A stretch of 64,000 nucleotides of DNA from Hoeflea marina. GTDB taxonomy: Bacteria; Pseudomonadota; Alphaproteobacteria; Rhizobiales; Rhizobiaceae. Position 1 is the stretch's first letter, and each line of letters begins with the position of its first letter. Of the stretch, positions 34,427 to 62,263 are shown piece by piece. The stretch lies in NCBI RefSeq assembly GCF_003182275.1, contig NZ_QGTR01000008.1:1-64000 (forward strand). Reading direction: 5' to 3'. A model generated the notes under the pieces. It saw only the letters and a list, made by a program, of their open reading frames with translations, searched no databases and had not been told where the DNA came from. A program made the position numbers and the translations under genes.

Positions 34427-34430
34427 GAGC

Positions 34431-42238: not shown

Positions 42239-42299
42239 ACGGCTGACCTTTATGACAGATGGCCGGCGAGCCGCGGATGCGGCCCGCCGAAACCGTGAT

Positions 42300-43424
42300 C
42301 TACATGCCGTAGGTCGCCTTATCGATGCTTCCGAAGACATTCTCGCGGTAGAGATCGGCCACCTGGTCCTGATTGGCGGGGTCGATCTTGGCGACCAGCC
42401 CTTCCCACTTGGCAACCAGTTCCTGGAACCGGGCGATCTTGGGCGCGGCGCCAGTGACGCCGAATGTTTCTTCGTTCAGCGCCGCGATGGCGGGAACGTC
42501 CTTTTCGACGAATGCCTTCGTCGCATCGACAACATCCGGGTCGGGGGTGACGACTTCGACGCCGAGCTTGGCGACACCGCCATTGGCGAAGGCCAGATCT
42601 TCGCTGTAGGTCGCAGCCGCCGCGCGGCCGATCCCCTCGACTGCCGTGTCCATCACCGCGACGCGGGTCTCGGCATCCCATTTGCGCCAGAGGTCGAGAT
42701 TGGTGTCAAACAGAGCGTTGATGTAGAACGTGCCGAGCGGCAGATCCGTGACATATTTCGCCACATCCTTCAGGCTCAGCGTCACCAGCGCCTCGTAGGG
42801 ATGCATGTTGGCGTCGATCGTGCCCTGCGAGAACCCCTGGTAGATGTCGCCCGCGGGAAGGTTGACCTGCACGCCGTCCATGGCCTCGGCCCAGCGTCCA
42901 TAGGCCGAGAAGCTGCGGATCCGCTTTCCCTTCAGATCGGCGAGCGACTTGAGCGGGGTCTTCGAGATCACCCGGTAGGGCGGGGTCGAACCGAAGCCCA
43001 GGAACACCTGCCCCTGATTGACATACTCCGCCGCGCATTCGGGATCGGTGAAGCAGTATTCGCTTGCCGCACCGGCCATCACCACCAGGTTCGATCCGAG
43101 CATGCCGAGATCACCGATGAGATTGGATTCCTTGAGCTCGGCGCGGTGATAGGCCGCCACAACATAGCCCATGTCCGCAATCCCGTCCCGCACGCCGGAA
43201 AAGGTCTCGGTGAAGTTGAGCAGCGACGAGCCGGTGAACAGCTTCGCGTCGAGCTTGCCGTCCGTGCGCTCCGGGATCTTTTCGGCGAAATACTTCATCG
43301 CCGAGACGACCGTGAAATTCTCCGGCACGCCGATGGCGAAGCGCAGCGTCTCGGCCCCCACGGAGCCTGTCATCAGTGCCGCGCACGCACAGCCAAGCGC
43401 AATCCTCTTGAGATTCCTGAGCAT
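42300..43424 (-). CDS. dctP: TRAP transporter substrate-binding protein, DctP family (second system)
   Basis: A 374-residue periplasmic protein. The signal peptide (MLRNLKRIALGCACAALMTG, cut near VGA-E24) is followed by RFAIGVPENFTVVSAMKYFA. The region LKGKRIRSFSAYGRWAEAMDG and the segment FSQGTIDANMHPYEAL are typical of DctP. The start at 43424 has GGAGGAAGATGGA; thirteen upstream codons are not used. It belongs to a DctP subgroup longer than the C4-dicarboxylate type. Confidence 0.92.
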   Translation of the reverse strand: MLRNLKRIALGCACAALMTGSVGAETLRFAIGVPENFTVVSAMKYFAEKIPERTDGKLDAKLFTGSSLLNFTETFSGVRDGIADMGYVVAAYHRAELKESNLIGDLGMLGSNLVVMAGAASEYCFTDPECAAEYVNQGQVFLGFGSTPPYRVISKTPLKSLADLKGKRIRSFSAYGRWAEAMDGVQVNLPAGDIYQGFSQGTIDANMHPYEALVTLSLKDVAKYVTDLPLGTFYINALFDTNLDLWRKWDAETRVAVMDTAVEGIGRAAAATYSEDLAFANGGVAKLGVEVVTPDPDVVDATKAFVEKDVPAIAALNEETFGVTGAAPKIARFQELVAKWEGLVAKIDPANQDQVADLYRENVFGSIDKATYGM

Positions 43425-43510
43425 TCCATCTTCCTCCCTGGCCGCGATCGGCGGCTTCCTCACTCAAATTCAGGTAACCACAAATGTCGGGGGCAGACAA
43501 GCAAAAAGTT

Positions 43511-43539
43511 ATCTGACGAATATCATTTCATCTGATGAA
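43511..43539. promoter_or_regulatory. Tandem regulator half-sites upstream of the second dctP
   Basis: ATCTGACGAA (43511-43520) and ATCTGATGAA (43530-43539) are direct repeats with one mismatch, 19 bp apart start to start (about two helix turns). The second also forms a palindrome TTCAT-ctg-ATGAA (43527-43539). They lie about 90-115 bp upstream of the dctP start codon, right for an activator or repressor site. No regulator gene adjoins this operon, so the protein is unknown. Confidence 0.4.
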
Positions 43540-43570: not shown

Positions 43571-46500
43571 TCACCATGTGTCGATCCGCGACCCGGTCCG
43601 CGGAGCCCGGCCGACGCCGGCGGCGCTGAGTACGGAGCGGATGCGGCTGCGCGTCTCGGCCGGGTCGATCACGTCATCGATCTCCAGGGTGCTGGCGACG
43701 TTGAGCGCCTTGCCCTTCTGATACATCTGGTCAACGAGCTTGCGGAACAGCGCGTCGCGCTGTTCGCCTTCCGCTGCGGCGGCAAGATCGGCCCGGTAGG
43801 CAAGCCTGACCGCTCCCTCCAGCCCCATGCCGCCGAACTCACCGGTCGGCCAGGACAGCGAAGCCGCGGGGGCATGAAAGCTGCCGCCTGCCATCGCCAT
43901 CGCACCCAGGCCATAGGCCTTGCGAAGCACGATCGTCACCATCGGCACGGTGAGCGCCGCGGCGGTGACGAACATCCGCGACACGTGCCTGACGAGCGCG
44001 GTTTCCTCTGCCCTGGGCCCGACCATGAAGCCCGGCGTGTCGCACAAGGTGACGATGGGAAGCCCGAAGGCCTCGCACACTTGCATGAACCGCGTCGCCT
44101 TGTCGGCGCAGTCGGCATCGATGGCGCCGCCGAGGGCCAGCGAATTGTTGGCGATCACGCCGATGGCTCGTCCCTCGATGCGGATGAGCGTGGTGACCAG
44201 GCTCGGCGCGAAGCCGCGCCGCAGTTCCATCGTCGTGCCTTCGTCGGCCAGCAGCTCGATGACCTTGCGCACCTCATAGGCGCGAAGCCGGTTTTCGGGC
44301 ACGACCTGCCGCAGCGCTGTCTGATCCGGGGCCGTCCACTCGGGCAGCGTTCCCTGGAAGTAGCCGAGATAGCGGCGGGCGGCCGCCACGGCTTCCGCCT
44401 CGTCCTCGACCAGCACGTCGATCACGCCGTTCGGGCCCTGGACGGATGTGGGTCCGACCTCTTCGGGCCTGAACACGCCGAGACCGCCACCTTCGATCAT
44501 CGCCGGACCGGCCATGCCAATGTTGGAATCGCGCGTCGCGATGATGACGTCGCAGCATCCCAGCAGGGCGGCGTTGCCGGCAAAGCAGCGGCCGGTCACC
44601 ACTCCCACCAGCGGCACAAGCCCGTTGAGCTTCGCCAGCCGCCGGAAGGTCATGGAATCCAGTCCGCTGACGCCCGTATAGTCGGTGTCGCCGGGCCTTC
44701 CGCCGCCGCCTTCGGCAAACAGCATCACCGGAATGCGCCACTGCTCCGCCAGCTGCAGCATGCGGTCCTTCTTGTGATGCGAATTGATTCCCTGGGTTCC
44801 GGCCAGCACGGTGTAGTCATAGGCAAGCGCCATGCACCGCGCCGCCTGCTCCGCGAAGACGTCGCCGTTGACCTGGCCCACGGCGGCGAGCAGCCCGTCC
44901 GCCGGACTGATCCGCAGCAGCTCCTCGACGCTGCGGCGCGACTTCTGCGCCGCGTAGGTCAGGCTGCCATACTCCTCGTAGCGGCCGCCGTCGAAGAAGC
45001 CGGCGAGGTTCTCGCGCACCATCCGCTTGCCCGATCGGGTCCGGCGCTCGACGGCCTCGGGACGGGCGGCGTCGAGAAGTCCGTCCTTCCTCTTGAGGAG
45101 CTCGGCCAGTTCCGGACGGATGGCGGCGGGATCGCCGGCCGCAACGGCCACACTGCCGGCCATCCAGTCGTCTTCAGGATCGAGATAGGCCATGACGGCG
45201 CCGAGTTCGATGCTGTCGCCGACCGCGCACCCGATATGGCAGACGCGGCCCGCAAGCGGGGTCAGCACCGGCATCTCCATCTTCATCGCCTCGATGATGC
45301 CAATCTGCGAGCCGGCGGACACCAGCTCGCCCATGCCGACATCGATCCGGACCACCAGTCCCTGCATCGGCGCGCCGATGGCGAGGGCATCGGGGGAGAG
45401 ATCCGGCGGAATCTCGGCATGGCCCGACGGGGCTGCCGCGCCGGCCTCCCTGTCAAGGGCTGCCGGACGCCGCGCATCGGAGACGTCCGTCGCCAGGATC
45501 CGTGCCAAGTGCGTCTCGATGAAGCGCGTGTGGAAGTCGCCCGCCCGGATTTCCGGCTGCGCCAGCAACTGGCGCAGGAACCCGGCATTGGTCTTCACCC
45601 CCTCGATTCGGGTGTCGCTGAGGGCGCGGTCGGCCCTGGCGACGGCGTCGGCGAAATCGCCGGTGCGGGAGCGGACGATGATCTTCGCCAGCAGGGAATC
45701 GAACGCCGGATTGGTGCGGTAGCCGGTGTAGCCGAAACTGTCGACCCGGATGCCGGGACCGGACGGCAGGTCGAAGGCGCTGAGCACGCCGCCCGAAGGA
45801 AGCACGGACCCGTCAGCCTGCAATTGCTCCATGTTGACCCGCAACTGGATGGCATAGCCCCGGGGCTCCGGGATGCGATCCTGAACCAGTCCGAGATCGT
45901 CGAGGCTCGCGCCCATGGCGACCCTCAGCTGCGCCTCGACGAGATCGTGGCCGGTGACTTCCTCGGTGACCGTGTGTTCGACCTGGATGCGCGGATTGGC
46001 TTCCATGAAATGGAACCGAGGCGGCGCAGTGTCGGTCTCGACCAGGAATTCGAAGGTGGCGAGCCCGCGATAACGGGTCTGCCGCGCCAGCCGCAGCGCC
46101 GCATCGAGAATCGCCTGCCGCAGCCCCGGCTCCACCACCAGCGACGGCGCGATCTCGACCAGCTTCTGGTGACGGCGCTGCAGGCTGCATTCGCGGTCCC
46201 AGAAGTGAACGGCATTGCCGCTCCCGTCGCCCAGAACCTGAACCTCCACATGCCGGGCGCTGGCGATGAATTCCTCCACATAGACCGCATCGTTGCCGAA
46301 GGCCGCCTGCGCCTCCGAGCGGCAGCGCTCATGCGCCTCGGGCAGCTCCGCGGCGGAGCGCACGACGCGCATGCCGCGTCCGCCGCCGCCGGCCACCGCC
46401 TTGATCATCGCCACGCCGCCCTCGCCAAGCGAGGCGAAGAAGGCCCGGGCCTGCTCCAGCGTGGTCGCGCCCTCGGTGCCGAGCGGGATCCTGACGTCGA

Positions 46501-46879
46501 GCGAGGCGGCCAGAGTGCGGGCCGAGACCTTGTCGCCGAACAGCCGCAGCACCTCGGAGGACGGTCCGACGAACGTGATGCCCCTGTCCTCGCACAGCCG
46601 GGCGAAATCCGGGTTTTCGCTCAGGAACCCGTAGCCGGGGTGAATCATGTCGCAGGTCTCGGCCTCCGCGGCGGCCATGACCGCCTCCATGTCCAGATAG
46701 GCGGCCGGGCCGCGCCCGGGCAGGACCACGCAGGCGTCTGCCTTGAGCACATGCAGGCTGGTCTGGTCGTCGACCGAACAGACGGCGACGCTGCGCATGC
46801 CCAGCGACGCGGCGGCGCCGGCAATCCGGATCGCGATTTCGCCGCGGTTGGCGATGAGCAATGACTTGCGATGTGACAT
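43571..46879 (-). CDS. Single-chain biotin-dependent acyl-CoA carboxylase (BC-BCCP-CT fusion)
   Basis: A 1102-residue fusion of all three parts of a biotin carboxylase. Residues ~1-460: biotin carboxylase (LLIANRGEIAIR, KAVAGGGGRGM, EANPRIQVEHTVTEE). Residues ~490-575: biotin carrier domain with EAMKMEM, the biotinylated Lys at about 533. Residues ~600-1100: carboxyltransferase of the propionyl/methylcrotonyl-CoA carboxylase type (YDYTVLAGTQGINSHHKKDR, AKLNGLVPLVGVVTGRCFAG, CDTPGFMVG). The architecture matches the homohexameric long-chain acyl-CoA carboxylases described in mycobacteria and other bacteria. It would carboxylate an acyl-CoA using ATP and bicarbonate. Start 46879 has TGGAGA upstream. 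It is the last gene of the minus arm. Confidence 0.93.
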   Translation of the reverse strand: MSHRKSLLIANRGEIAIRIAGAAASLGMRSVAVCSVDDQTSLHVLKADACVVLPGRGPAAYLDMEAVMAAAEAETCDMIHPGYGFLSENPDFARLCEDRGITFVGPSSEVLRLFGDKVSARTLAASLDVRIPLGTEGATTLEQARAFFASLGEGGVAMIKAVAGGGGRGMRVVRSAAELPEAHERCRSEAQAAFGNDAVYVEEFIASARHVEVQVLGDGSGNAVHFWDRECSLQRRHQKLVEIAPSLVVEPGLRQAILDAALRLARQTRYRGLATFEFLVETDTAPPRFHFMEANPRIQVEHTVTEEVTGHDLVEAQLRVAMGASLDDLGLVQDRIPEPRGYAIQLRVNMEQLQADGSVLPSGGVLSAFDLPSGPGIRVDSFGYTGYRTNPAFDSLLAKIIVRSRTGDFADAVARADRALSDTRIEGVKTNAGFLRQLLAQPEIRAGDFHTRFIETHLARILATDVSDARRPAALDREAGAAAPSGHAEIPPDLSPDALAIGAPMQGLVVRIDVGMGELVSAGSQIGIIEAMKMEMPVLTPLAGRVCHIGCAVGDSIELGAVMAYLDPEDDWMAGSVAVAAGDPAAIRPELAELLKRKDGLLDAARPEAVERRTRSGKRMVRENLAGFFDGGRYEEYGSLTYAAQKSRRSVEELLRISPADGLLAAVGQVNGDVFAEQAARCMALAYDYTVLAGTQGINSHHKKDRMLQLAEQWRIPVMLFAEGGGGRPGDTDYTGVSGLDSMTFRRLAKLNGLVPLVGVVTGRCFAGNAALLGCCDVIIATRDSNIGMAGPAMIEGGGLGVFRPEEVGPTSVQGPNGVIDVLVEDEAEAVAAARRYLGYFQGTLPEWTAPDQTALRQVVPENRLRAYEVRKVIELLADEGTTMELRRGFAPSLVTTLIRIEGRAIGVIANNSLALGGAIDADCADKATRFMQVCEAFGLPIVTLCDTPGFMVGPRAEETALVRHVSRMFVTAAALTVPMVTIVLRKAYGLGAMAMAGGSFHAPAASLSWPTGEFGGMGLEGAVRLAYRADLAAAAEGEQRDALFRKLVDQMYQKGKALNVASTLEIDDVIDPAETRSRIRSVLSAAGVGRAPRTGSRIDTW

Positions 46880-46929
46880 CGTTCGGTCTCCAGAGGCGCG
46901 CGGCATGAACCGCCGCCCGATTGTTCAGA

Positions 46930-49008
46930 TCAGTCGAAGGTGCCGGTTGTGCCGGCGCGCTCGACCAGCAGCGCCGCGGGCTCCCAGCCGGGAAACCGTG
47001 ACTCCGAGTGAAATCCGCGGATCCGCTCGAGGATCGGCGCCAGCCCCACCCGCTCGGCGTAATGCATCGGTCCGCCCTTCAGGTCCGGGAAGCCGTAGCC
47101 GCGGGCATAGACCAGGTCGATGTCGGAGGCGCGCTGGGCATGGCCCTCCTCGAGGATTTTCGCACCTTCATTGACCAGCGCATAGACGCAGCGCTCGACG
47201 ATCTCCCGGGCGTCGATGGGCCGCTTGCGGACGCCCGCGCCCGCCCGCATCTCCTCGAGCAGGCCCGCAAGCTCGGGCGAATCCCGGCCCTGCCGCTCGC
47301 CCTCGGCATAGAGATACCAGCCCCTGCCGGTTTTCTGGCCGAACCAGCCGCGCTCGGCCGCCGCGTCGGCGATCTCCGGAAACCGGAAGGACGGGTCGGC
47401 GGCAAGGTGACGCTTGCGGTTGAGCCAGGCGATGTCGTTGCCGGCCATGTCGGACATCTCGAACGGGCCCATGGCGAAGCCGAAGCCGCGCAACGCCTCG
47501 TCCACCTGGCGCGGCGTGGCGCCTTCCATCAGCAGTTCGTTGGCGCGCAGAAAATACTGGTCGATCATCCGGTTGCCGATGAAGCCGTCGCAGTTGCCGG
47601 CCACCACGCCGATCTTGCCGAGCTTCTTGGTCACGGCCATGGCTGTCAGCAGCGCGGAGGCGGACGTGGACGGCGTGCGCACCACCTCGACCAGCCGCAT
47701 GATGTGGGCGGGCGAAAAGAAGTGCATGCCGAGAACACGACTTGAATCGCGCGTCACCGAGGCGATCTCGGCAATGTCCAGGAACGAGGTGTTGGAGGCA
47801 AGGATGGCGTCCGGCCCGACAAGCGAGTCGAGTTCGGTGAAGACGGCCTTCTTGACCGCCATGTCCTCGATCACCGCCTCGATCACCAGATCCGCGTCGG
47901 CCAGTTCCGCGAGTGCGGCGGCGGGCACGATGCGCGCCTGCGCGGCTCCAGAGGCGGCGCTGTCCATCTTGCCCCTGCGCTCGGCCGACGCATAGGCCTT
48001 GGCCCGAGCCGTTTGGCTGCGGGCGAGCGACTCCGCGCTCGGATCGTAGAGGCGCACCCGGTAGCCCGAATTGGCAAACGCCATGGCGATTCCGGTCCCC
48101 ATGGTGCCGGCGCCGACCACGCCGACCGTGCCGACGGCGCGCGCGGCGGCGGTCGAATCCACGCCCTGCACCCGCCCCGCGGCGCGCTCGGCGAAGAACA
48201 GGTGCTGCAGCGCGATCGCCTCGGGCGATGCCGCCAGCTCGAGGAACGCAGCATGGTCGCCGGCCTCGGCCTCGGCGGCGGATGCTGTGATCGAGCGGGC
48301 GACGCTCTCGACGATCGCCTGCGGTGCCGGGCCGCGCGCCACGGCGCGGGCCCGTTCCATCGCTGTGGCCAGGGCGGCGTCCGCATCTCCGTCAAACCGC
48401 ACCGGCCTGTCACGGAGCCGCGGCAAGGGATCGCCGGCCTTGAGAAGATCCGCCGCCACCTCGATCGCGCGCGCCGACGGCTCGCCGTCCGTGACGGCAT
48501 CGGCCAGACCGAGTGCGGCCGCCTCCGTGCCGGTGATGAACCGCCCGTCCATCATCAGTTCCAGCGCCTTGCCGGCCTCGATCAGCCGCGGCAGCCGCAG
48601 CGTCCCGTGCGCGCCGGGCATGACCCCAAGCTTGACCTCCGGAAGGCCGAGAAGCGCCTGGCTCGAGGCGACGCGTGCATGGCAGAACAGCGCCAGTTCC
48701 AGACCGCCGCCGAGCGCCACGCCCTCGATCGCCGCCACCGAGGGTTTTGCCGCCGCCTCCAGCAGCCGGCCGATGTCGATGATGCTCGGAAACGCCGTGG
48801 CGTCCTCGGTGTTGAACTCGCGCACGTCCGCCCCGCCGCTGAAGCGGCCTCCCTCGCCCGACAGCACCAGACAATCGATCCGGTCATCGGCAAGCGCTGC
48901 CGAGACCGCCGCGTGGATGTGCTTGCGCATGGCCAGCGACAGAGCGTTGACGGGCGGATTGGACCAGGTGATGCGGGCGGCGTTCGGCGTGGTCTGGGAC
49001 TGGGTCAT
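46930..49008 (-). CDS. fadJ: Bifunctional enoyl-CoA hydratase/3-hydroxyacyl-CoA dehydrogenase
   Basis: A 692-residue multifunctional beta-oxidation protein. The N-terminal crotonase half has GRFSGGADVREFN and EGVALGGGLELALFCHARV (oxyanion hole and catalytic region); the C-terminal half is the NAD-dependent dehydrogenase with VGVVGAGTMGTGIAMAFANS, LGMHFFSPAHIMRLVEVV and the GNRM-DQY substrate site. Length matches FadJ/peroxisomal bifunctional enzymes. It would turn an enoyl-CoA into a 3-ketoacyl-CoA, or a 3-hydroxyacyl-CoA for the thiolase-fold partner of this operon. Confidence 0.93.
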   Translation of the reverse strand: MTQSQTTPNAARITWSNPPVNALSLAMRKHIHAAVSAALADDRIDCLVLSGEGGRFSGGADVREFNTEDATAFPSIIDIGRLLEAAAKPSVAAIEGVALGGGLELALFCHARVASSQALLGLPEVKLGVMPGAHGTLRLPRLIEAGKALELMMDGRFITGTEAAALGLADAVTDGEPSARAIEVAADLLKAGDPLPRLRDRPVRFDGDADAALATAMERARAVARGPAPQAIVESVARSITASAAEAEAGDHAAFLELAASPEAIALQHLFFAERAAGRVQGVDSTAAARAVGTVGVVGAGTMGTGIAMAFANSGYRVRLYDPSAESLARSQTARAKAYASAERRGKMDSAASGAAQARIVPAAALAELADADLVIEAVIEDMAVKKAVFTELDSLVGPDAILASNTSFLDIAEIASVTRDSSRVLGMHFFSPAHIMRLVEVVRTPSTSASALLTAMAVTKKLGKIGVVAGNCDGFIGNRMIDQYFLRANELLMEGATPRQVDEALRGFGFAMGPFEMSDMAGNDIAWLNRKRHLAADPSFRFPEIADAAAERGWFGQKTGRGWYLYAEGERQGRDSPELAGLLEEMRAGAGVRKRPIDAREIVERCVYALVNEGAKILEEGHAQRASDIDLVYARGYGFPDLKGGPMHYAERVGLAPILERIRGFHSESRFPGWEPAALLVERAGTTGTFD

Positions 49009-49066
49009 GATCTGGCCTTGATGCAGTGGCGTGCGGTTTCGGGCGACGGAGTCTTGCCGCGCGGGG

Positions 49067-50674
49067 TCAATTGCGCTGGATGCGGAGCCCCGCCGCCTCC
49101 CGGTCCCAGACGTCGCCCCGGGAGCGTCCGACGCTGCGCAGGATGTGCTTCTCGATCTTCTGGGTCGGCGTCTTGGGCAGGTCGGGGAGAATCCGCACGT
49201 AGCGCGGTATCATGAAATAGGTGAGGTTCTTGGACAGGAACCTGATCAGGTCGGCCGGATCCAGCGAGGCGTTGTCCCTGAGCGAGACCACGACCATGAC
49301 CTCGCTTTCGCTGATTTCGCTCTCGGTGGCCACCGCCGCCGCTTCGCGGATGGCGGGATGGGCCATCACCGCGGCCTCGACCTCGAAGGACGAGATGTTC
49401 TCGCCCCGCCGCCGGATCGCGTCCTTGAGCCTGTCGACGAAGAAATAGTAGCCGTCCTCGTTCCTGCGGAACACATCGCCGGTGTGGAACCAGCCGTTGC
49501 GCCAGGCCCGCGCGGTGGCTTCCGGGTCGTTGTAGTAGCCGTGCATCATCGCCCAGGGCCGATCGGTCCGGATGATCAGCTCGCCGGTGTCGCCCGTGGG
49601 GACTTCGCAGTCATGGGCGTCGACGATCCTGAGCTCGACCCCGTCGCGCGCCCTGCCGCAGGTGCCCGCCACCGGCGGATTGGCCTCCGACACGATCGGC
49701 AGGGAGACTTCCGTCATGTTGAAGGAGGTGTAGATGTCGATGTTGAAGCGCTCCCTGAGCGCCGGCGCATCGTCGTCGAAGGGCTGCTGGATGATGTAGC
49801 GCAAGTGGCCCGCCTTCTCCGCGGGCACCTCCGGCTGCGACAGCAGATAGCGCGTCATCACGCCGAGCAGGATGGCGAACGTCGCCCGGGTCGCGGCGAT
49901 GGTTGCCCAGAACTGGTCCGTCTTGAAGCGCTCGATGACCGCCACCGAGCCGCCGAGCGAGAGCATCAGCATGCAGGGCAGGATTCCGGCGATGTGATAG
50001 ATGGGCAGGTTGACCAGATACCGGTCACTGGCATCAAGGAAATAGACCGCCCTTCCGGCGGTGACGACATGCAGGTAGGAGCACATCACCCCTTTCGACG
50101 GGCCGGTGGTGCCGGAGGTGTAGATGATGCATTGCAGGTCGAAGGGAAGAATGGCGCGCGCCGGCGCGTCCGGCGTCTCGCCGGCGCCGTCGAGCACGCG
50201 GGCGTCGAGCAGCCTCACGCCGTCAACGATCGCCGGCGGCTGCCCGAAGGTCACGATCGTCTTGAGGCCGCCGGTGGAGACATGCGTGAGCGGCTCGACC
50301 ATGTCGGCGGCGCAGACGAGGACCTCGGCGCCGGAATTGGAGATGACGCGTTCCAGCAGTCCGCCGCGATAGGCCGGGTTCACATGCACGGCCACCGCGC
50401 CGATATAGTTGGCGCCGAACCACACGCGCAGCGCGTCCGGCCCGTTCGGCAACGCGATCAGCACCCGGTCGTCCTGCCGGACCCCCAGCGCCTGCAGGCC
50501 GGCCGCCGCCCGCCGCGTCTGCCGCAGGGTTTCGGCGAAGCTCCATTCCGAGCCGTCCTGGAAGACGGCGTAGACCGCATCGGGGGTCCGCTCGGCGTTT
50601 CGCTCGAGCATGGCGCTCAGCACGCAGTCCTCCGGCGGCAGGATGCGCGGGTCAGTGGTGGTGTGGGTCTGCAT
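49067..50674 (-). CDS. AMP-forming acyl-CoA ligase, CaiC-like
   Basis: A 535-residue ANL-superfamily ligase. AMP-binding loop CIIYTSGTTGPSKGVMCSY; YTSFNMTEVSLPIV; GWFHTGDVFRRNEDGYYFFV; DRLKDAIRRRGENISSFEVE; catalytic Lys near PKTPTQKIEKHIL. The set VDRLKDAIRRRGENISS is typical of the crotonobetaine/carnitine-CoA ligase (CaiC) group and related branched or aromatic acid ligases. It probably activates the acid that the following FadJ and carboxylase act on. Confidence 0.92.
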   Translation of the reverse strand: MQTHTTTDPRILPPEDCVLSAMLERNAERTPDAVYAVFQDGSEWSFAETLRQTRRAAAGLQALGVRQDDRVLIALPNGPDALRVWFGANYIGAVAVHVNPAYRGGLLERVISNSGAEVLVCAADMVEPLTHVSTGGLKTIVTFGQPPAIVDGVRLLDARVLDGAGETPDAPARAILPFDLQCIIYTSGTTGPSKGVMCSYLHVVTAGRAVYFLDASDRYLVNLPIYHIAGILPCMLMLSLGGSVAVIERFKTDQFWATIAATRATFAILLGVMTRYLLSQPEVPAEKAGHLRYIIQQPFDDDAPALRERFNIDIYTSFNMTEVSLPIVSEANPPVAGTCGRARDGVELRIVDAHDCEVPTGDTGELIIRTDRPWAMMHGYYNDPEATARAWRNGWFHTGDVFRRNEDGYYFFVDRLKDAIRRRGENISSFEVEAAVMAHPAIREAAAVATESEISESEVMVVVSLRDNASLDPADLIRFLSKNLTYFMIPRYVRILPDLPKTPTQKIEKHILRSVGRSRGDVWDREAAGLRIQRN

Positions 50675-50725
50675 GACGGTTCGCTTCCACGCTTGATGAT
50701 CCGGACGGTCTGGACCGGTCGCCGG

Positions 50726-51139
50726 CTACTCGGCGACGATGACGGCCGGTTCGAACATGGGCACCCGATGGCCGCCGTCCGACTCGACGAACACGACGCT
50801 CACCGGCATTCCGATCCGGATGTCGTCGGCGGCGCAGCCGACGATGTTGGTCATCATCGTCGGGCCTTCACTGAGCGTCACATAGGCGATCGCATAGGGC
50901 ACCTTCGCCCGCCGCATGATGCTGTAGGAATAGACGGTGCCCGCCCCCTCCGCCTGCTCGAGCACGGTGTCGGCGGACAGGCAGCGCGGGCAGCGCGCCC
51001 GCGGGTAGAAATGGGCTTCGCCGCAGGTCCGGCAGCGGCCGATCATCAGCCTGTGGCTGTCGGCCGCCTGCCAGTAGCCGACCGTCTCGACGGTCGGTTC
51101 AGGGGCTGCGGGAATGCGGTCTCCGAGACGGTCGGTCAT
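50726..51139 (-). CDS. DUF35 OB-fold/zinc-ribbon protein, partner of the thiolase-like protein
   Basis: A 137-residue protein with an N-terminal helix, a rubredoxin-like zinc ribbon (CRTCGEAHFYPRARCPRC, two C-x2-C pairs) and an OB fold (GTVYSYSIMRRAKVPYAIAYVTL). DUF35 proteins bind acyl-CoA or scaffold a thiolase-fold partner, as ChsH2 does for the Ltp2 aldolase in steroid side-chain breakdown. It is separated from the thiolase-like gene by one base, which supports a stable complex. Start 51139 is chosen because it begins at the family N-terminus. Confidence 0.9.
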   Translation of the reverse strand: MTDRLGDRIPAAPEPTVETVGYWQAADSHRLMIGRCRTCGEAHFYPRARCPRCLSADTVLEQAEGAGTVYSYSIMRRAKVPYAIAYVTLSEGPTMMTNIVGCAADDIRIGMPVSVVFVESDGGHRVPMFEPAVIVAE

Positions 51140-51140
51140 G

Positions 51141-52310
51141 TCAGTGGCGCTCCAGAATGAGGGTGGCAGCCGCATGGCGCGTGCCGAGCGAACCGCCCAT
51201 TGCCTGCGCGAGCGCCAGGCGGCAGTCCTTCACCTGCACCTGCGGCGCGGCCTCGCCGCGCAACTGGCGCACGGCCTCGATGATCTTGGTCATGCCGCCG
51301 CGATAGCCCGGATGATTGTTGCACAGTCCGCCGCCATCGGTGTTGACCGGCAGCCGCCCGACGCCCGAGATCAGCCCGCCGTCGGCGACGAACCGGCCGC
51401 CCTGCCCCTTGGCGCAGAAGCCCAGATCTTCGAGCTGGGTGATCACGGTGATGGTGAAGCTGTCATAGATCGATGCGTAGTCGATGTCGGACGGGACGAT
51501 GCCGGCTTCCGCGAAGGCGTCGGCGCCCGAGAAGGCGGCCGCGGAGAAGGTCAGGTCGATGCGGCCGCCGTTCTGGTGCTTGACCGCCTCGCCGTGGCCG
51601 AGAACCTTGACCACCGGCCGCTTGAGCCCGGCCGCGATGTCGGGGCTGACGACGACGATCGCGCCGCCGCCGTCGCTGACGATGCAGCAATCCATGCGGT
51701 GCAGCGGATCGGCGATCATCGGCGAGCCCAGCACCTCCTCGACGGTCACCACCTTGGGCAGCATCGCATGGGGATTGTGCTGGGCGTGGTGCGAGGCGGC
51801 GACCTTGACCCAGGCCAGTTGCTCGGCGGTGGTGCCGAAATCATGCATGTGCCGCATGGCGGCGAGCGCGTATTCGTTGACGAGTTCGGCGCCATAGGGA
51901 AGCTCGAACTGCAGGTCGGGCGTCGACGGCGGGAAAGGCCGGGGCGCCACGCCGCCGGCGGCCGCATCGGCGCGCGGCCGGCCCGCCATGGAAATCACCG
52001 CCACCTTCATCTTTCCCGCTGCGATCGCCTCTGCCGCATGCGCGACCTGGGAGAGATAGGTGGCGCCGCCGCTTTCGGACGCTTCAACGTGCCGGACGCT
52101 GAGGCCGAGATAGTCCAGCATCGACAGCGCACCCAGCCCGGGGGCGTCGCTGTCGCAGAAGAAGCCGTCGACGTCGTCCTTGCCGAGACCCGCATCGGCC
52201 AGCGCCCCGGCGATCACGTCACCGTGCAGCGCAGCCAGGGAAATGTCCTTGGCATTGCGGGTGGGATGCTCGTAGATGCCTGCGATGCAGGCCTGGTTGC
52301 GAATGCTCAT
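51141..52310 (-). CDS. Thiolase-fold lipid-transfer-type protein without the catalytic cysteine
   Basis: A 389-residue protein of the SCPx/Ltp thiolase family. Fold markers are SLAALHGDVIAGALADAGL, VKVLGHGEAVKHQNGG and GRLPVNTDGGGLCNNHPGYRGG, but where thiolases carry the nucleophilic Cys this protein has HVEASESGGATYL (residues ~74-86), with no Cys. The His near the C-terminus remains (NNHPG). Ltp2-type proteins of this sort act as retro-aldol lyases with a DUF35 partner, which is the neighbouring gene. Start 52310 has AAGGAA upstream; 64 upstream codons are rejected. It heads the minus arm of the divergent locus. Confidence 0.85.
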   Translation of the reverse strand: MSIRNQACIAGIYEHPTRNAKDISLAALHGDVIAGALADAGLGKDDVDGFFCDSDAPGLGALSMLDYLGLSVRHVEASESGGATYLSQVAHAAEAIAAGKMKVAVISMAGRPRADAAAGGVAPRPFPPSTPDLQFELPYGAELVNEYALAAMRHMHDFGTTAEQLAWVKVAASHHAQHNPHAMLPKVVTVEEVLGSPMIADPLHRMDCCIVSDGGGAIVVVSPDIAAGLKRPVVKVLGHGEAVKHQNGGRIDLTFSAAAFSGADAFAEAGIVPSDIDYASIYDSFTITVITQLEDLGFCAKGQGGRFVADGGLISGVGRLPVNTDGGGLCNNHPGYRGGMTKIIEAVRQLRGEAAPQVQVKDCRLALAQAMGGSLGTRHAAATLILERH

Positions 52311-52393
52311 CGGGTGTTCCTTGCGCACCGGGCGGGAGGGAACACGGCTGACGCCGACGCCGCAAGACACCCCTCCCGTCGTGTCTTGCCGGC

Positions 52394-52423
52394 ACGATAG
52401 AATGCCGGATCTTTTCGTGTCAA
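52394..52423 (-). promoter_or_regulatory. Promoter candidate for the minus-arm (thiolase-carboxylase) operon
   Basis: Consensus -35 TTGACA (complement of 52418-52423), an 18-bp spacer and -10 TATCGT (complement of 52394-52399, 4 of 6 matches). It lies about 85-110 bp upstream of the thiolase-like gene. A CAATACGCA element (52447-52455) lies 24 bp upstream of the -35 box. Confidence 0.55.
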
Positions 52424-52446
52424 CAGACAAAATGAGTTGTGTCACG

Positions 52447-52543
52447 CAATACGCACGGGCCGATGCGGCCCTCATGCCGTCCCCGCGACAGAGCCCCGAC
52501 AATCCCCCTGTATGTTATCTCATGAAACTACTTTTGCGTATTG
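52447..52543. promoter_or_regulatory. Shared inverted element in the divergent control region
   Basis: CAATACGCA at 52447-52455 is repeated inverted as TGCGTATTG at 52535-52543, one copy per divergent promoter. The right copy overlaps the plus-strand -35 hexamer; the left copy lies upstream of the minus-strand -35. Similar CACA-containing flanks extend both (ACACA/TGTGT types). This suggests one regulator controls both arms, but no regulator gene is adjacent. Confidence 0.45.
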
Positions 52544-52569
52544 ACACATTTTTGCGGCTTGGCTATCTC
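52541..52569 (+). promoter_or_regulatory. Promoter candidate for the plus-arm (MBL-lyase) operon
   Basis: Consensus -35 TTGACA (52541-52546), a 17-bp spacer and -10 TATCTC (52564-52569, 3 of 6 matches), about 30 bp upstream of the MBL-fold gene. The -35 overlaps the right TGCGTATTG element. Confidence 0.55.
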
Positions 52570-52598
52570 TTGGGAGAGGATACGGGGAGGAGAAATTG

Positions 52599-53525
52599 AT
52601 GACAACTTTCAGGGTTGGCAATGTCACCGTCCGCCGGATCGAGGAGGTTCTCGAGCTCGGTTACCCTCCCGAATTCATGCTGGTCGGCTTCGATCCCGCC
52701 ATGCTGGCGCGCTATCCCGTCGCCGCGGACAGCCGGTTCTACGATTCCGCCAGCGGCCGCTCCTTGAGCAGCATCCATTCCTGGCTTGTCGAGATCGACG
52801 GCAAGACCATCCTGATCGACACCTGCTCGGGCAACGGCAAGGCCCGCGCGCTGCCGATCTTCCAGCGCTTCCACATGCTTGACCTGCCCTATCTGGACAA
52901 TCTCGCCGCCGCGGGCGTTTCGGTCGAGGATGTCGACATCGTCTTCTGCACGCATCTGCACATCGATCATGTCGGCTGGAACACCCGCCGCGATGGCGAC
53001 CGCTGGGTGCCGACCTTCCCCAATGCGCGCTACATCTTCGGCCGCGCCGAATACGAACACTGGACCGGCGACGGCAAGGGGCCGCTGGTGTTTCCGGACA
53101 ACGCCGCCGTCATCGAGGACAGCGTGCTGCCGGTTGCCGAAGCCGGCATGATGGAGCTCATCAATGCCGGCCAGGAGATCGTTCCGGGCCTGCGCGTGGA
53201 AGCAGCACCTGGCCACACCATGGATCAGCTGATCGTCAAATACGAATCCGCCGACGGCTGCTTCGTCATCTCGGCCGATGTCCTCCACCACCCGGTGCAG
53301 GTCTACGAGCCCTTCATCACCAGCCGGTTCTGCGAATATCCGGACCTGGCCGAAAAGACCCGGCGCGACCTGCTGGCCTATTGCGCCGACCGCGATGCCC
53401 TGCTGCTGCCGATGCATTTCGGCGCGCCGCATGCCGGTCGCGTCGCACGCACCGCGACCGGATACGAGTTCCGGCCGGAGACGGCGGAAGCCGCACCGGC
53501 CGGCCTGGAGATCATGCAGTCCTGA
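52599..53525 (+). CDS. MBL-fold metallo-hydrolase
   Basis: A 308-residue metallo-beta-lactamase-fold hydrolase. The dinuclear metal motif is intact as THLHIDHVGW, with later AAPGHTMDQLIV (third His) and SADVLHHPVQV (bridging Asp). It looks like the lactonase/arylesterase-type branch rather than a beta-lactamase. It is the first gene of the plus arm, and would hydrolyse a lactone, ester or thioester feeding the lyase steps. Start 52599 is the ATG following GGGGAGGAG; a TTG three bases upstream is not used. Confidence 0.88.
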   Translation: MTTFRVGNVTVRRIEEVLELGYPPEFMLVGFDPAMLARYPVAADSRFYDSASGRSLSSIHSWLVEIDGKTILIDTCSGNGKARALPIFQRFHMLDLPYLDNLAAAGVSVEDVDIVFCTHLHIDHVGWNTRRDGDRWVPTFPNARYIFGRAEYEHWTGDGKGPLVFPDNAAVIEDSVLPVAEAGMMELINAGQEIVPGLRVEAAPGHTMDQLIVKYESADGCFVISADVLHHPVQVYEPFITSRFCEYPDLAEKTRRDLLAYCADRDALLLPMHFGAPHAGRVARTATGYEFRPETAEAAPAGLEIMQS

Positions 53526-53591
53526 CCGCCGGGTGACCGCGCCAGCGCGCCGGACCGGGAACGCAGACTGCCAAGAGAGGAAGTAAGGACC

Positions 53592-54848
53592 ATGGGCTAT
53601 ACAATCACCGAGAAGATCCTCGCGCGGGTATCGGGTCTGGATCATGTCAAGGCAGGCGACGAGGTCATGGCCAAGCCCGACTTCATCACCGCCTATGATT
53701 TTCCCGGATACACCGATGTCTACTTCAAGCAGATGAAGGAGGACTTCGGCATCGAGCGCGTGGCCGAGCCCGAGCGCATCGCCATGTTCATCGACCACAT
53801 GGTGCCCGCAGCCACCCCCAAGGAGGAAGAGCTCCACATCGGCACCCGCAAATGGTGCGCCGAAAACAACGTGCCGCTGTTCGAGCGCAAGGGCATCGGC
53901 CACCAGGTGGCCTCGGAAGTCGGCTACGCGGTCCCCGGCGCCTTCGTCGTCCATTTCGACGGCCACATCAGCCAGCTCGGCACCTTCGGAACGCTCGCCA
54001 TGGGCATCCGCCGCAACCTGCTGGAAGCGCTGGTCAACGAGAAGATCTCGATCAAGGTCCCCCACACCGTCCGCGTCAACCTCACCGGCACGCTGTCGAA
54101 GGGCGTTCTCGCCCGCGATGTGTTTCACCATCTGGTGCGCGAGATGGGGCCTGCCTCCTGCCGGTTCCAGGTGCTGGAGCTCGGCGGCCCGGGCCTTTCG
54201 CAGCTGACCACCGAGGGACTGCAGACCATCACCGGACTTGCCATGTTCACCGGCGCCGTCACCGCCATCGTCAACCCGGACGAGCCGCGCCTGGCCTATG
54301 CGCTGCCGCGCGCGCGCAAGAAGCTCGACCCGGTCTACAGCGATCCGGACGCGGACTACGCCAAGGTCTACGAGATCGACCTCACCGCGCTCGAGCCGCT
54401 GATCGTGATCCCGCCCACCCCGGCCAATTCGCGCAACCTCACCGAATTCCTCGGGCTCGAGCTGACCAACGGCTATCTCGGCTCCTGCGCCTCGGGCCGG
54501 CTCGAGGATCTCGAGATCGCCGCGCGGATCCTTGAGGGCAAGCAGGTGGCGCCGGGCTTCCAGCTCAATATCGTGCCCACCAGCAACGAGATCATGGTGG
54601 CGGCCGGCCGTGCCGGCTATCTCGCCACCCTGACGGAGGCCGGAGCCTTCGTCTCGGCGCCGAGCTGCGACTACTGCTTCGGCCGCATGGGAGCCATGTC
54701 GGCCAACCAGCGCGCGGTGTCGACCGGCACGCTGAACGTGCGCGGCCGCATGGGCAGCCCGGATTCCGAAATCTATCTGTGCAGCGCGGCGACCGTCGCC
54801 GCATCGGCGCTGGAAGGCAAGATTGCCGACCCGCGCAAGTATCTGTGA
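53592..54848 (+). CDS. LeuC/aconitase-like hydro-lyase, large subunit (2,3-dimethylmalate dehydratase-like)
   Basis: A 418-residue member of the aconitase superfamily, LeuC-like large subunit. The [4Fe-4S] cysteines are visible: NGYLGSCASGRLEDLEIAA (in place of the usual CTNSR) and SCDYCFGRMG (C-x2-C). The substrate-Arg and other family segments are conserved (HIGTRKWCAENN, VVHFDGHISQLGTFG). It pairs with the small subunit 10 bp downstream. Such two-subunit hydro-lyases next to an isocitrate-lyase-like gene resemble DmdAB, 2,3-dimethylmalate dehydratase of Eubacterium barkeri nicotinate breakdown. It could also use citramalate, isopropylmalate or another alkylmalate. Confidence 0.82.
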   Translation: MGYTITEKILARVSGLDHVKAGDEVMAKPDFITAYDFPGYTDVYFKQMKEDFGIERVAEPERIAMFIDHMVPAATPKEEELHIGTRKWCAENNVPLFERKGIGHQVASEVGYAVPGAFVVHFDGHISQLGTFGTLAMGIRRNLLEALVNEKISIKVPHTVRVNLTGTLSKGVLARDVFHHLVREMGPASCRFQVLELGGPGLSQLTTEGLQTITGLAMFTGAVTAIVNPDEPRLAYALPRARKKLDPVYSDPDADYAKVYEIDLTALEPLIVIPPTPANSRNLTEFLGLELTNGYLGSCASGRLEDLEIAARILEGKQVAPGFQLNIVPTSNEIMVAAGRAGYLATLTEAGAFVSAPSCDYCFGRMGAMSANQRAVSTGTLNVRGRMGSPDSEIYLCSAATVAASALEGKIADPRKYL

Positions 54849-54858
54849 GGACACGGAC

Positions 54859-55374
54859 ATGGCGTTGGAAAATCTGCGCGGGCGTGTGGCCTTCATCTTC
54901 GAGGAAGTCAATTTCGACGTCGACCAGATCGTCGGGGTGAAGAACATCAAGATCACCGACATCGACGAACTGGCCGCCGCCGCCATGCAGTCCTACGATC
55001 CGGACTTCCGCACCGCCGTGCGGCCGGGCGATATCCTCGTCGGCGCCGACAATTTCGGCTACGGCCATCCACACTATCCCCCGATGCGCGCCATGCGCCA
55101 CATCGGCATCGCCGGCGTGCTGGCCGAATCCTTCTCCCCGGGCTACTGGCGCGGAGAGATCTCGATGGGGTTTCCGCAGGCCACCTGCCCCGGAATTCTC
55201 GGCATGGTCGAGCGCTGGGACGAGATCGAGATCGACTGGGCGGCCAACGAGGTGCGCAACCTCACCCGCGGCGGCAGCCTTCCCATCGACCCGCTTTCCA
55301 ATGCGGACCGCGCCATGCTCGATGCCGGCGGATTGATCGGCTACCTCCAGGGCAAGCGGCAACCCGCGGCCTGA
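54859..55374 (+). CDS. LeuD-like hydro-lyase, small subunit (2,3-dimethylmalate dehydratase-like)
   Basis: A 171-residue small subunit of a LeuCD-type hydro-lyase. The swivelling-domain substrate loop is visible (VGADNFGYGHPHYPPMRAMR; LeuD has a GSSREHAP-type loop here, so the loop sequence is unusual), followed by the short C-terminal domain (IDPLSNADRAMLDAGG). Start 54859 has GAGGA upstream; the upstream 12 codons overlap the large-subunit end and are rejected. It acts as one complex with the preceding gene. Confidence 0.8.
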   Translation: MALENLRGRVAFIFEEVNFDVDQIVGVKNIKITDIDELAAAAMQSYDPDFRTAVRPGDILVGADNFGYGHPHYPPMRAMRHIGIAGVLAESFSPGYWRGEISMGFPQATCPGILGMVERWDEIEIDWAANEVRNLTRGGSLPIDPLSNADRAMLDAGGLIGYLQGKRQPAA

Positions 55375-55399
55375 ACCATCTCAAGAACAGGAAGATCCC

Positions 55400-56269
55400 A
55401 TGTCCCACGGTCCAAGCAACGACTATCGTGAACGCGTCCTGGCCCAGAAAACCGTCTGGGCCGCCGGCGCCTATGATGCCTTCTCGGCCAAGATGATCGA
55501 GCGCGCCGGCTTCGACGCGGTCATGACCAGCGGTTTCGGCGTCTCCGCCTCGCTGCTCGGCATGCCCGACGCCGAACTCTACACCATGACCGAGAACGCC
55601 GGCGTCGTCCGCAATGTCGCCAACGCGGTCAAGATCCCGGTGATCGCCGACATGGACACGGGCTACGGCAACGCCATCAACGTCATGCGCTCGGTGCGGG
55701 AATTCGAGGGCGCCGGCACCTCGGCCATCATCATGGAAGACCAGGTCGCGCCCAAGCGCTGCCCGATCTGTGTGAGCGGCGTGGAAACCATCGGCCTTGA
55801 GGAGGCCGTCAAGAAGATCGAGGCGGCGGTCGAGGCCCGCCGCAATCCCAACATGCTGATCATCGCCCGCACCGATGTCGATTCGGTTCCCGAGGCCATC
55901 CGCCGCGCCAAGGCCTATGTCGCCGCCGGCGCCGACGTCATCCAGCCGATCAGCAACACCTTCAAGGATCTGGCCGGGCTCAAGACGCTCCGCGCCGAGG
56001 CCGGCGTGCCGCTGTCGCTGCAGATTCTCGGCTGGCTTGAGCGCGACCTGACGCCGGACGAGATCGCCAGCGTCGCCGGAATGGCGACCTTCGCGCTCGT
56101 GCCGCTGATGACCGCCGCCGCCGCACTTGAGAAGAACCTGGCCCAGCTGGCCCGCGACAAGACGTCGAGGAACCTGCCGCTCGCGCGCATGGACCATCAC
56201 GAGTTCATCGGCCTGATCGGTTTCCCCGAGATCGAGCAGCTGCAGCTCCGGTTTCTCGAGCAGGCCTGA
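55400..56269 (+). CDS. Isocitrate lyase/PEP mutase-family C-C lyase (2,3-dimethylmalate lyase-like)
   Basis: A 289-residue TIM-barrel enzyme of the isocitrate lyase/PEP mutase superfamily. The metal/active-site segments are IADMDTGYGNAINVMRSVRE, AIIMEDQVAPKRCPICVS (corresponding to the K-R-C-G/H loop) and LIIARTDVD. Family members close in size cleave 2-methylisocitrate, 2,3-dimethylmalate or other 2-alkylmalates. With the preceding hydro-lyase it would give a retro-aldol cleavage to pyruvate plus a short acid, e.g. propionate. Start ATG 55400 has AACAGGAAG upstream. Confidence 0.86.
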   Translation: MSHGPSNDYRERVLAQKTVWAAGAYDAFSAKMIERAGFDAVMTSGFGVSASLLGMPDAELYTMTENAGVVRNVANAVKIPVIADMDTGYGNAINVMRSVREFEGAGTSAIIMEDQVAPKRCPICVSGVETIGLEEAVKKIEAAVEARRNPNMLIIARTDVDSVPEAIRRAKAYVAAGADVIQPISNTFKDLAGLKTLRAEAGVPLSLQILGWLERDLTPDEIASVAGMATFALVPLMTAAAALEKNLAQLARDKTSRNLPLARMDHHEFIGLIGFPEIEQLQLRFLEQA

Positions 56270-56652
56270 CTTCCCCGGCGTGCAGGGTCCGTCCAGTCGG
56301 CGTCAGGCCGGGCGGATCCGGCATTGCCGCCTGCCGAAACTCGCTCTGTCGCTGCACGATGCGACAGAGCGGGACCGCCGAACGCCTCCATCAAAGGCGG
56401 GGTCGCTGCAGGCGCCGAGTGAAGTTCCGTGTGAAGCTCTGGAAATTGGCTGGGTCACGGGGCCGGCCGGAACGGCCCCCGGTCTGCGCCCACAGATCCA
56501 CCCATTTCGGAGGTGGCCCCGAGTGACCCCTTCGAGACTGGGAAACGGCAACCTCCAGAGGCGTCATCGCACCGGGTATTTGCCGGTTGGGCCGGAAAGC
56601 GGGCCGGGTGCCGGCCTTCATCGGCGCTCGGCAGGCCCGAGCGGGGCGCTCT
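56270..56652. other. Convergent intergenic region
   Basis: About 380 bp between the lyase gene and livF of the second ABC operon. Its main feature is the strong hairpin at 56342-56371. A short stretch (GCGACAGAGC) resembles part of the ~100-bp repeat but no more of it is present. Open frames here look like by-products of GC-rich DNA. Confidence 0.5.
56342..56371. terminator. Strong hairpin between convergent operons
   Basis: A perfect 11-bp inverted repeat, CGCTCTGTCGC / GCGACAGAGCG, with an 8-base loop, 73-102 bp after the lyase stop codon. It lies between two convergent operons and could stop transcription from both sides. There is no T-tract on the plus side and only a short AGTTTCGG on the minus side. 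Confidence 0.55.
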
Positions 56653-59051: not shown

Positions 59052-59054
59052 GGA

Positions 59055-59942: not shown

Positions 59943-59943
59943 G

Positions 59944-61277: not shown

Positions 61278-61291
61278 TCCACAAAATTTGG

Positions 61292-61304
61292 TTCACCTAG
61301 TGAA
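61292..61304. promoter_or_regulatory. Palindrome TTCAC-N3-GTGAA upstream of the second liv operon
   Basis: A perfect 13-bp palindrome TTCACCTAGTGAA, exactly 14 bp upstream of the liv -35 hexamer and 30 bp beyond the IclR stop codon. A one-mismatch copy sits at the same distance from the -35 of the FAD-oxidase gene (62237-62249). The location upstream of -35 suits an activator; the gene between the two sites encodes an IclR regulator. Confidence 0.6.
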
Positions 61305-62249: not shown

Positions 62250-62263
62250 ATAAAAATTGCCTG

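Follow-up and report, generated by a model that had tools for sequence, protein, structure and literature searches.

We predict, with a probability of roughly 0.6, that the stretch of Hoeflea marina DNA analyzed here (the window: 64,000 nucleotides, positions 1 to 64,000 of contig NZ_QGTR01000008.1) carries a single catabolic locus that is controlled by an IclR-family regulator and consists of two modules, a mobile core and a set of CoA-dependent genes (the CoA arm). The core includes a LeuC/LeuD-like pair and an isocitrate lyase (ICL)-like enzyme, a combination that is a variant of known enzyme families. A preliminary description of positions 43571-56269 named nine genes, and all are open reading frames with the domains, strands and places it gave, both in the plus-strand arm (metallo-beta-lactamase-fold (MBL) hydrolase, LeuC/LeuD-like pair, ICL-like enzyme) and in the minus-strand arm (CoA ligase, FadJ, cysteine-less thiolase/DUF35 pair, one-chain carboxylase). 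Intergenic gaps inside each arm are -35 to 66 bases, as in operons, and the divergent arms lie 288 bases apart. The locus extends past this interval on either side, with a tripartite ATP-independent periplasmic (TRAP) transporter and a second CoA ligase (LIG2) to the left, and a Liv importer, the IclR regulator and an FAD oxidase to the right. Its closest relatives are two loci in Hoeflea metagenome-assembled genomes (MAGs), with LeuC at 97%. The genes are as follows.

38687-40306, minus strand: LIG2, acyl-CoA ligase, above the PRK06018 cut-off; terminal gene of the minus-strand run
40369-41751, minus strand: DctM, TRAP large permease, called as a frame with an uncertain start
41672-42238, minus strand: DctQ, TRAP small permease, with a hand-chosen start in the frame 41672-42415
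42300-43463, minus strand: DctP, TRAP solute-binding protein (domain search)
43571-46906, minus strand: single-chain biotin-dependent acyl-CoA carboxylase of the long-chain acyl-CoA carboxylase (LCC) type (4rcn match, residues 14-1090)
46930-49008, minus strand: FadJ/FadB-like enoyl-CoA hydratase/3-hydroxyacyl-CoA dehydrogenase (domain search)
49067-50674, minus strand: AMP-forming acyl-CoA ligase (domain search)
50726-51175, minus strand: DUF35/ChsH2-type OB-fold partner (domain search)
51141-52310, minus strand: thiolase-like protein (retro-aldolase type) without the N-terminal cysteine (domain search, alignment)
52599-53525, plus strand: MBL hydrolase, lactonase/esterase-like (domain search; its PDB relatives are organophosphorus/methyl parathion hydrolases and lactonases)
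53592-54848, plus strand: LeuC-like aconitase-superfamily large subunit, with three [4Fe-4S] cysteines and DGHISQL in place of the DSH motif
54859-55374, plus strand: LeuD-like small subunit, with NFGYGHPHYPP in place of NFGxGSSRExA (named from NCBIfam and PDB matches; a Pfam search gave no match)
55400-56269, plus strand: lyase of the ICL/phosphoenolpyruvate (PEP)-mutase superfamily, a KRCPI/QPIS/SLQ variant
56653-61104, minus strand: LivF-LivG-LivM-LivH-LivK, branched-chain-amino-acid-type ABC importer (LivK by Pfam, the other four names from the sequence as read and annotated relatives)
61334-62116, minus strand: IclR-family regulator (domain search)
62328-63935, plus strand: FAD-linked oxidase/dehydrogenase of the GlcD/VAO type (domain search; its PDB relatives are glycolate/D-lactate and cresol enzymes)

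The core was defined from its recurrence in other genomes. We scored partners within 11 kb of LeuC (at least 30% identity, half coverage, E 1e-15) in 39 loci, a set that omits the window and four loci duplicating named contigs (L034, L035, L041, L042); the counts are minima, with some flanks short and many ending at contig ends. The class loci L097-L103, several of them, enter only the LeuD/LeuC motif and lyase residue comparisons. LeuD lies beside LeuC in 39 of the 39 loci and the ICL-like lyase is present in 37, one of the two misses (L059) falling at a contig end and the other being Polaromonas L092. Other partners are IclR (28 loci), LivG (18), DctM (16), the MBL hydrolase (14), the FAD oxidase (11), a family of about 540 amino acids (10), a double alpha/beta-hydrolase (9) and LIG2 (3; L049 was scored without LIG2, which is there in pieces). 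LeuC-like orthologues of at least 67% occur in 10 of 199 family genomes, with the next full-length match at 36%, and the protein occurs in 8 of 385 class genomes at E 1e-120, the window's own genome being included in both counts. Twenty-five LeuC-like loci were found in named genomes (some being the same genomes), and the protein is encoded on seven plasmids at 60-80% and on one Rhodococcus plasmid at 47.5%. The module is carried by marine and soil isolates as well as by MAGs, among others. Plasmids of Azospirillum ramasamyi and Variovorax sp. SRS16 hold a compact block, IclR / MBL-FAD oxidase-LeuC-LeuD-ICL-Liv. The FAD oxidase (62328-63935), IclR (61334-62116) and the Liv importer (56653-61104) are counted as core because they are linked to it in Azospirillum and Variovorax and in part of the 39 loci. 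The recurring unit is therefore IclR, the Liv importer, the FAD oxidase, the MBL hydrolase, the LeuC/LeuD-like pair and the ICL-like lyase. The MBL hydrolase, LeuC/LeuD-like pair and lyase of the preliminary description do travel together, and the CoA arm for the most part does not accompany them; IclR, Liv and the FAD oxidase lie outside the interval it covered.

Some loci show further features near the core. In one genus (L154 and L157; G458, G231), the LeuC module is present twice per genome, in diverged versions (65% and 58% to the window). The double alpha/beta-hydrolase (L035:11818-13476 and relatives), whose second half is PcaD-like, is close to the core in its nine loci. At L068:2480-6445, an acyl-CoA dehydrogenase, a phosphotransferase-like gene and a CoA ligase, read by eye, follow the core consecutively, a gene row that recalls levulinate-type 4-hydroxyacyl-CoA routes.

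The CoA arm can still be tied to the core, because of its clustering in Mesorhizobium, its neighbors in Rhodococcus and the operator motifs described below. In Mesorhizobium microcysteis (G172 contig 45, ~81.9-116.8 kb), all parts occur in one rearranged cluster of ~35 kb: DctMQP, carboxylase (63%), ligase (71%), a second MBL protein (40%), IclR (66%), FAD oxidase (70%), Liv, ICL, LeuD, LeuC, MBL, thiolase (87%), DUF35 (65%) and FadJ (54%). Rhodococcus opacus has divergent DUF35 (32%), thiolase (40%) and ligase (25%) genes adjoining IclR and ICL-LeuC-LeuD.

Candidate operators were sought with two models built from other genomes, without Hoeflea rows. One is a 20-mer weight matrix from six MBL promoters, and the other is a palindromic 16-mer from simple expectation maximization on 24 IclR upstream regions, which totaled 272 for the real regions compared to 142-155 for shuffled ones (the shuffles being run with fewer seeds). 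Scores were compared with 61 control intergenic regions, and the candidates in the window are as follows.

43516-43531, no strand assigned: IclR-type operator candidate upstream of DctP (16-mer 17.0, 0/61 controls as high; 20-mer 2/61)
52415-52434, minus strand: candidate operator/promoter element CATTTTGTCTGTTGACACGA, toward the thiolase operon (20-mer 0/61; best 16-mer of the gap 2/61)
52522-52537 and 52530-52549, plus strand: weaker operator-like copies in the MBL-proximal part of the divergent promoter (motif models)
61281-61296, no strand assigned: operator candidate upstream of LivK (16-mer 13.7, 1/61 controls as high; 20-mer 2/61)
62253-62272, plus strand: candidate operator/promoter element upstream of the FAD oxidase (0/61 controls as high by either model)

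Thus the thiolase/MBL, FAD-oxidase and DctP promoters outscore 61/61 control regions by at least one of the two models, while for the convergent ICL/LivF gap 16/61 (20-mer) and 50/61 (16-mer) controls score as high. That gap also contains a perfect inverted repeat, CTCTGTCGC...GCGACAGAG, at 56343-56368, possibly a common terminator. The thiolase-facing TTGTCTGTTGACACG and the FAD-oxidase-facing TTGCCTGTTGACATG are the only matches in the window to the joint pattern with up to 2 mismatches. Two sites in the window match the pattern TTGYCTGTTGACAYG exactly; with up to 2 mismatches 0.33 are expected, and 6 of 100 shuffles had at least 2. With the same tolerance, the element is found ~45-165 bases upstream of MBL in L037, L038, L039, L040, L071 and Azospirillum L088, and in Mesorhizobium it precedes FadJ by 63 bases; no match was found in 7 of the 18 sequences scanned (L084, L085, L051, L052, L053, L036, L089). 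The thiolase promoter reaches a 20-mer score of 32.0, above the maxima of 20 Markov-simulated 64-kb windows (10.2-21.1). By the 16-mer model, 62245 and 43516 (DctP promoter) rank at the top of the window, and 61281, 52522 and 52427 are within the top ten. In Mesorhizobium, controls scoring as high (of 61; 16-mer, then 20-mer) number 0 and 7 for the DctP/carboxylase region, 1 and 0 for FadJ, and 2 and 4 for thiolase/MBL. For the IclR gene of the carboxylase module in G186 the numbers are 1/61 (16-mer) and 10/61 (20-mer), and the best site of that whole locus (14.4, L085:11640) straddles the DctP start and hence falls outside the bounded gap between carboxylase and DctP. In the Hoeflea MAG locus L048, a LIG2 relative (89%) lies directly opposite MBL with an operator facing it; in the window, where LIG2 is at the far end of the minus-strand run, the CoA/TRAP block would then appear as if inserted between the operator and LIG2. 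The predicted operators suggest that IclR probably co-regulates the core and the CoA arm.

Several observations weigh against a single locus. The carboxylase and the orthologous ligase were found within 11 kb of LeuC in 0/39 loci, the thiolase in 2/39 and DUF35 in 1/39 by the 30% identity filter, and FadJ in 0/39 by that filter and 1/39 by a looser count. The looser count adds a Mesorhizobium FadJ (52%, truncated by the end of the L050 stretch, 9.4 kb from LeuC) and a Rhodococcus DUF35 (32%), leaves partial FadJ-like matches of 31-38% in L062, L063 and L070 uncounted, and finds a CoA ligase of any subfamily within 11 kb in 8/39 loci. The closest Hoeflea MAG loci, whose flanks are partial, are among those lacking the carboxylase, the orthologous ligase, FadJ and the thiolase. 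At the genome level, co-occurrence of LeuC with the CoA arm is weak: in the family, LeuC is present in 3/5 carboxylase genomes (2/4 without the window's own genome, hypergeometric P 0.011), and in the class, the carboxylase is found in 3/7 LeuC genomes, all of one genus (P 0.06), and the thiolase in 1/7 (P 0.48). The conserved co-occurrence of eight or nine genes anticipated by the preliminary description is thus not borne out, and by this test the CoA arm is seldom found with the core. The operator motif is itself a prediction. Its FAD-oxidase site (18.8) would not stand out window-wide on its own, because the highest of the 20 simulated maxima is 21.1; the 16-mer model is AT-rich, and its top ten includes sites outside the locus (228, 14238, 12428, 37784, 11666). 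No site was found upstream of the Mesorhizobium IclR gene (controls as high, 16-mer 35/61; 20-mer 36/61), and for the bounded carboxylase/DctP gap of G186, 13/61 (16-mer) and 37/61 (20-mer) controls score as high. Polaromonas L092, which entered the table by its second LeuC copy at the stretch end, the first being split in two pieces, has LeuC and LeuD with no lyase match anywhere in its 33-kb stretch. One of the 40 lyases compared, from Rhodococcus, lacks the QPIS/SLQ motifs described below and reads MPVT/TLT. Finally, the order of steps, the substrate type and the products of the pathway are predictions.

The scarcity of CoA-arm genes at LeuC loci would fit two unrelated operons, one for the CoA-dependent breakdown of a fatty or aromatic acid and one of the alkylmalate type, that simply stand back to back. 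The carboxylase and orthologous ligase are missing at 39/39 LeuC loci, FadJ at 38 and the thiolase at 37, and the carboxylase is associated with the thiolase (24/35 thiolase genomes compared to 54/385 class genomes overall, own included) independently of LeuC. We nevertheless regard this explanation as unlikely, given the operator motif at the promoters of both arms, the presence of all parts together in Mesorhizobium, and the different CoA ligase (89% to LIG2) that occupies the divergent position in L048 with the operator facing it. The operator motifs and the Mesorhizobium cluster likewise uphold the earlier proposal that one catabolic locus joins CoA-dependent and lyase chemistry.

The LeuC/LeuD-like pair has an unusual active site. 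LeuC residues C299, C359 and C362 align with the cluster cysteines of archaeal LeuC 4nqy and do not vary across 31 distinct rows. In a tree of 65 LeuC-type proteins, where some outgroup branches are very long, 45 fall in the window group (support 100/99), 4 in a second group and 16 in the rest. Throughout the window clade (45/45), LeuC reads DGH[IV], compared to GDSH in canonical rows, and LeuD reads NFGYGHPH, in which HPH replaces the SSR of aconitases; ten related canonical rows have NFGxGSSRE in LeuD. The serine of the SSR motif is described as the general base of aconitases, Ser642 of mitochondrial aconitase, in PMC8184944. This serine is absent from the LeuD-like protein, where His-Pro-His stands in all 45 clade members. 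Curated cut-offs for LeuCD/DmdB/HacA are missed: 330 compared to 386 bits for TIGR01343, 98 compared to 109 for TIGR02087, and 355 compared to 385 for NF001614. A second non-canonical LeuC/LeuD clade (L043-L045; G105, G037, G196) has DEPN/DEGN and HHSHPH/HHNHIE motifs, and its neighbors, by eye, are fumarase/tartrate-dehydratase-type subunits, a hydroxyacid dehydrogenase and a flavin reductase.

The lyase departs from its relatives in a similar manner. Residues D57, D84, D86, C121 and R157 are present in 40/40 lyases, so that the catalytic Asp/Cys/Arg and the Mg-binding Asp pair are kept; the Asp/Cys/Arg set is named for isocitrate lyase in PMC7609661. QPIS and SLQ occur in 39/40, and the usual leaving-group residues are not retained. 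In the window lyase, the Glu and Asn of PrpB are replaced by Ile184 and Gln208, and KRCGH by KRCPI, while the nine canonical lyase rows, from loci with an SSR-type LeuD, all have KRCG; the Glu position of canonical lyases was covered for L023 in the motif search and was also seen in L047. A housekeeping methylisocitrate lyase, the identity that would have undercut the preliminary description, is rejected, since no protein of the genome reaches the PrpB cut-off (TIGR02317), the lyase scoring 175 compared to 354 bits. A PrpD-family protein is encoded elsewhere in the genome, outside the locus. Fold neighbors of the lyase structure model (pLDDT, the predicted local distance difference test, 87.8) are PEP mutase, methylisocitrate lyase and phosphonopyruvate hydrolase (Z 31.2-32.3), and because they are nearly tied, the fold does not settle specificity.

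An aerobic route of the 2,3-dimethylmalate/citramalate type, using the logic of DmdAB plus dimethylmalate lyase, would fit the LeuC-LeuD-lyase order and the folds, and 2,3-dimethylmalate lyase 3fa3/3fa4 is among the structural neighbors (Z 30, 27-28% identity). We consider this route, whose logic the preliminary description had seen in the plus arm, improbable; the absence of nicotinate genes that it noted comes from reading the sequence, no search aimed at them having been made. It is weakened by the departure of both enzymes from canonical LeuCD-lyase motifs and by missed cut-offs for LeuC, LeuD/DmdB (98 compared to 109 bits) and PrpB (175 compared to 354 bits); PEP mutase and phosphonopyruvate hydrolase are neighbors at Z 31-32, and canonical LeuCD-lyase operons of the same family fit such a route better.

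Still more doubtful is action of the pair on ring-cleavage products of N-heterocycles or lactams, where the substrate would resemble maleamate in having an amide as its second carboxylate. In favor, Gln, Ser or His have taken the place of charged or canonical binding residues, the core of BroJett030 (L057), by eye, adjoins a hydantoinase/oxoprolinase-type pair (HyuAB) and a flavin-reductase-like gene, and the 540-amino-acid family stands beside the core in 10/39 loci. Against it, no ring-cleaving oxygenase was identified, that family matches nothing in Pfam or the PDB and its model is poor, and the window core has no member of it.

The 540-amino-acid family (L042:12303-13940, L062:12717-14339 and relatives) directly follows the lyase in Rhodobacterales loci and has invariant His-rich stretches. 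It gave no NCBIfam match and no Pfam match even at E 10, neither a single sequence nor a profile matched the PDB, and its AlphaFold model has a pLDDT of 41. A resemblance to NicX-like ring-cleaving dioxygenases was considered, and with no Pfam, NCBIfam or PDB match it is not claimed. A separate block of the window (28357-36000) holds hydantoinase/oxoprolinase-type HyuA/HyuB genes, which are caprolactamase-like but miss the cut-off, together with a TRAP DctM and genes resembling a CoA ligase and a further IclR regulator.

Among the CoA-arm proteins, the carboxylase has biotin carboxylase, biotin carboxyl carrier protein and carboxyltransferase domains (BC-BCCP-CT) in a single chain, with the biotin motif AMKM, and the one-chain architecture and a near full-length 4rcn match place it in the LCC type. 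A housekeeping role as propionyl-CoA, methylcrotonyl-CoA or pyruvate carboxylase is not needed, as other biotin carboxylase/carboxyltransferase genes are present elsewhere in the genome. The thiolase-like protein is of the SCP2/Ltp2 type and has a ChsH2-type OB protein as its partner. There is no cysteine in the part that aligns with the N-terminal active-site region (EASESGGATYLS), which we take to be the catalytic-cysteine region. The protein scores above the curated cut-off of the PRK08142 thiolase-domain subfamily (NF006010; 669 compared to 462 bits), and cut-offs for the benzoylsuccinyl-CoA thiolase BbsAB are missed (143 compared to 750 and 23 compared to 250 bits).

Within the single two-module locus that we favor, an organic acid would be imported via the Liv importer, the TRAP transporter or both. 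It may be oxidized by the FAD oxidase, and the lactonase-like MBL protein may open a lactone to give a hydroxy acid. The LeuCD-like [4Fe-4S] enzyme would then dehydrate and rehydrate this acid, shifting the hydroxyl next to the carboxylate, with a histidine probably standing in for the usual serine base. Cleavage of the C2-C3 bond by the ICL-like enzyme, via Asp/Cys/Arg, would yield two products, an alpha-keto acid (pyruvate or glyoxylate type) and another acid, and the CoA arm could finish the latter through the ligase, single-chain carboxylase, FadJ-like hydratase/dehydrogenase and retro-aldol thiolase/DUF35 pair. In aconitases, where Arg644, Ser166 and Arg447 have assigned roles, and in methylisocitrate lyase, the residues missing from both central enzymes hold carboxylates. 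Because both enzymes lack them, the substrate is not expected to be citrate-, isopropylmalate- or dimethylmalate-like, and a neutral or aromatic group probably stands where a carboxylate would usually be held. We infer a new substrate class for the pair.

More tentatively, and at somewhat less than even odds, the clade may represent a new aconitase-fold hydro-lyase with a histidine base and a co-evolved ICL-fold C-C lyase, acting on substrates without a second carboxylate and served by dedicated CoA finishing, in an undescribed pathway found on proteobacterial plasmids and chromosomes and an actinobacterial plasmid. A literature search found no description of the LeuCD-like/ICL-like lyase module, which is no proof of its absence in print. 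In public records the proteins bear the names "aconitase family protein", "3-isopropylmalate dehydratase" and "isocitrate lyase/PEP mutase family protein", which hide an active site departing from the aconitase general-base serine as given in PMC8184944. If the pair works as proposed, it would extend a textbook family by a new base and substrate class. The combination of HPH with QPIS/SLQ could serve as a marker for the catabolic pathway, and the predicted operator would define a regulon. Overall, this is a transferable, probably co-regulated catabolic locus with an unusual aconitase-like/lyase pair.

Like the LeuC/LeuD isopropylmalate/citramalate isomerases and homoaconitase (4nqy/4kp1, 3vba), the window pair has two subunits that align over nearly their full length, three cluster cysteines, and Asp-His and His motifs; it differs in the changes of SSR to HPH, DSH to DGH and the first Arg of SNRNFxGR to Leu, and in forming its own clade. 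The order LeuC-LeuD-lyase is common to operons of canonical LeuCD with an ICL-family lyase (group III, for example L047, which also has a Liv importer), but those operons keep DSH, GSSR, KRCG(H) and a dimethylmalate-type lyase logic, and the window type does not. The lyase shares its fold (Z 30-32) with 2-methylisocitrate lyase, 2,3-dimethylmalate lyase, phosphonopyruvate hydrolase and PEP mutase and keeps the Asp/Cys/Arg residues of the lyase mechanism; unlike PrpB, it has Ile184/Gln208 for Glu/Asn and KRCPI for KRCGH, and its model appears similar to 2,3-dimethylmalate lyase by fold only. The BC-BCCP-CT order of the carboxylase is that of LCC (4rcn), which it matches over nearly its whole length, and of carboxylase 5fif/5h80. 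Ltp2-type enzymes are aldolases, and the thiolase/DUF35 pair resembles the Ltp2/ChsH2-type aldolases in combining a thiolase fold lacking the N-terminal cysteine with a DUF35 partner, and is distinguished from them by its membership in the PRK08142 subfamily, named merely "thiolase domain-containing protein".

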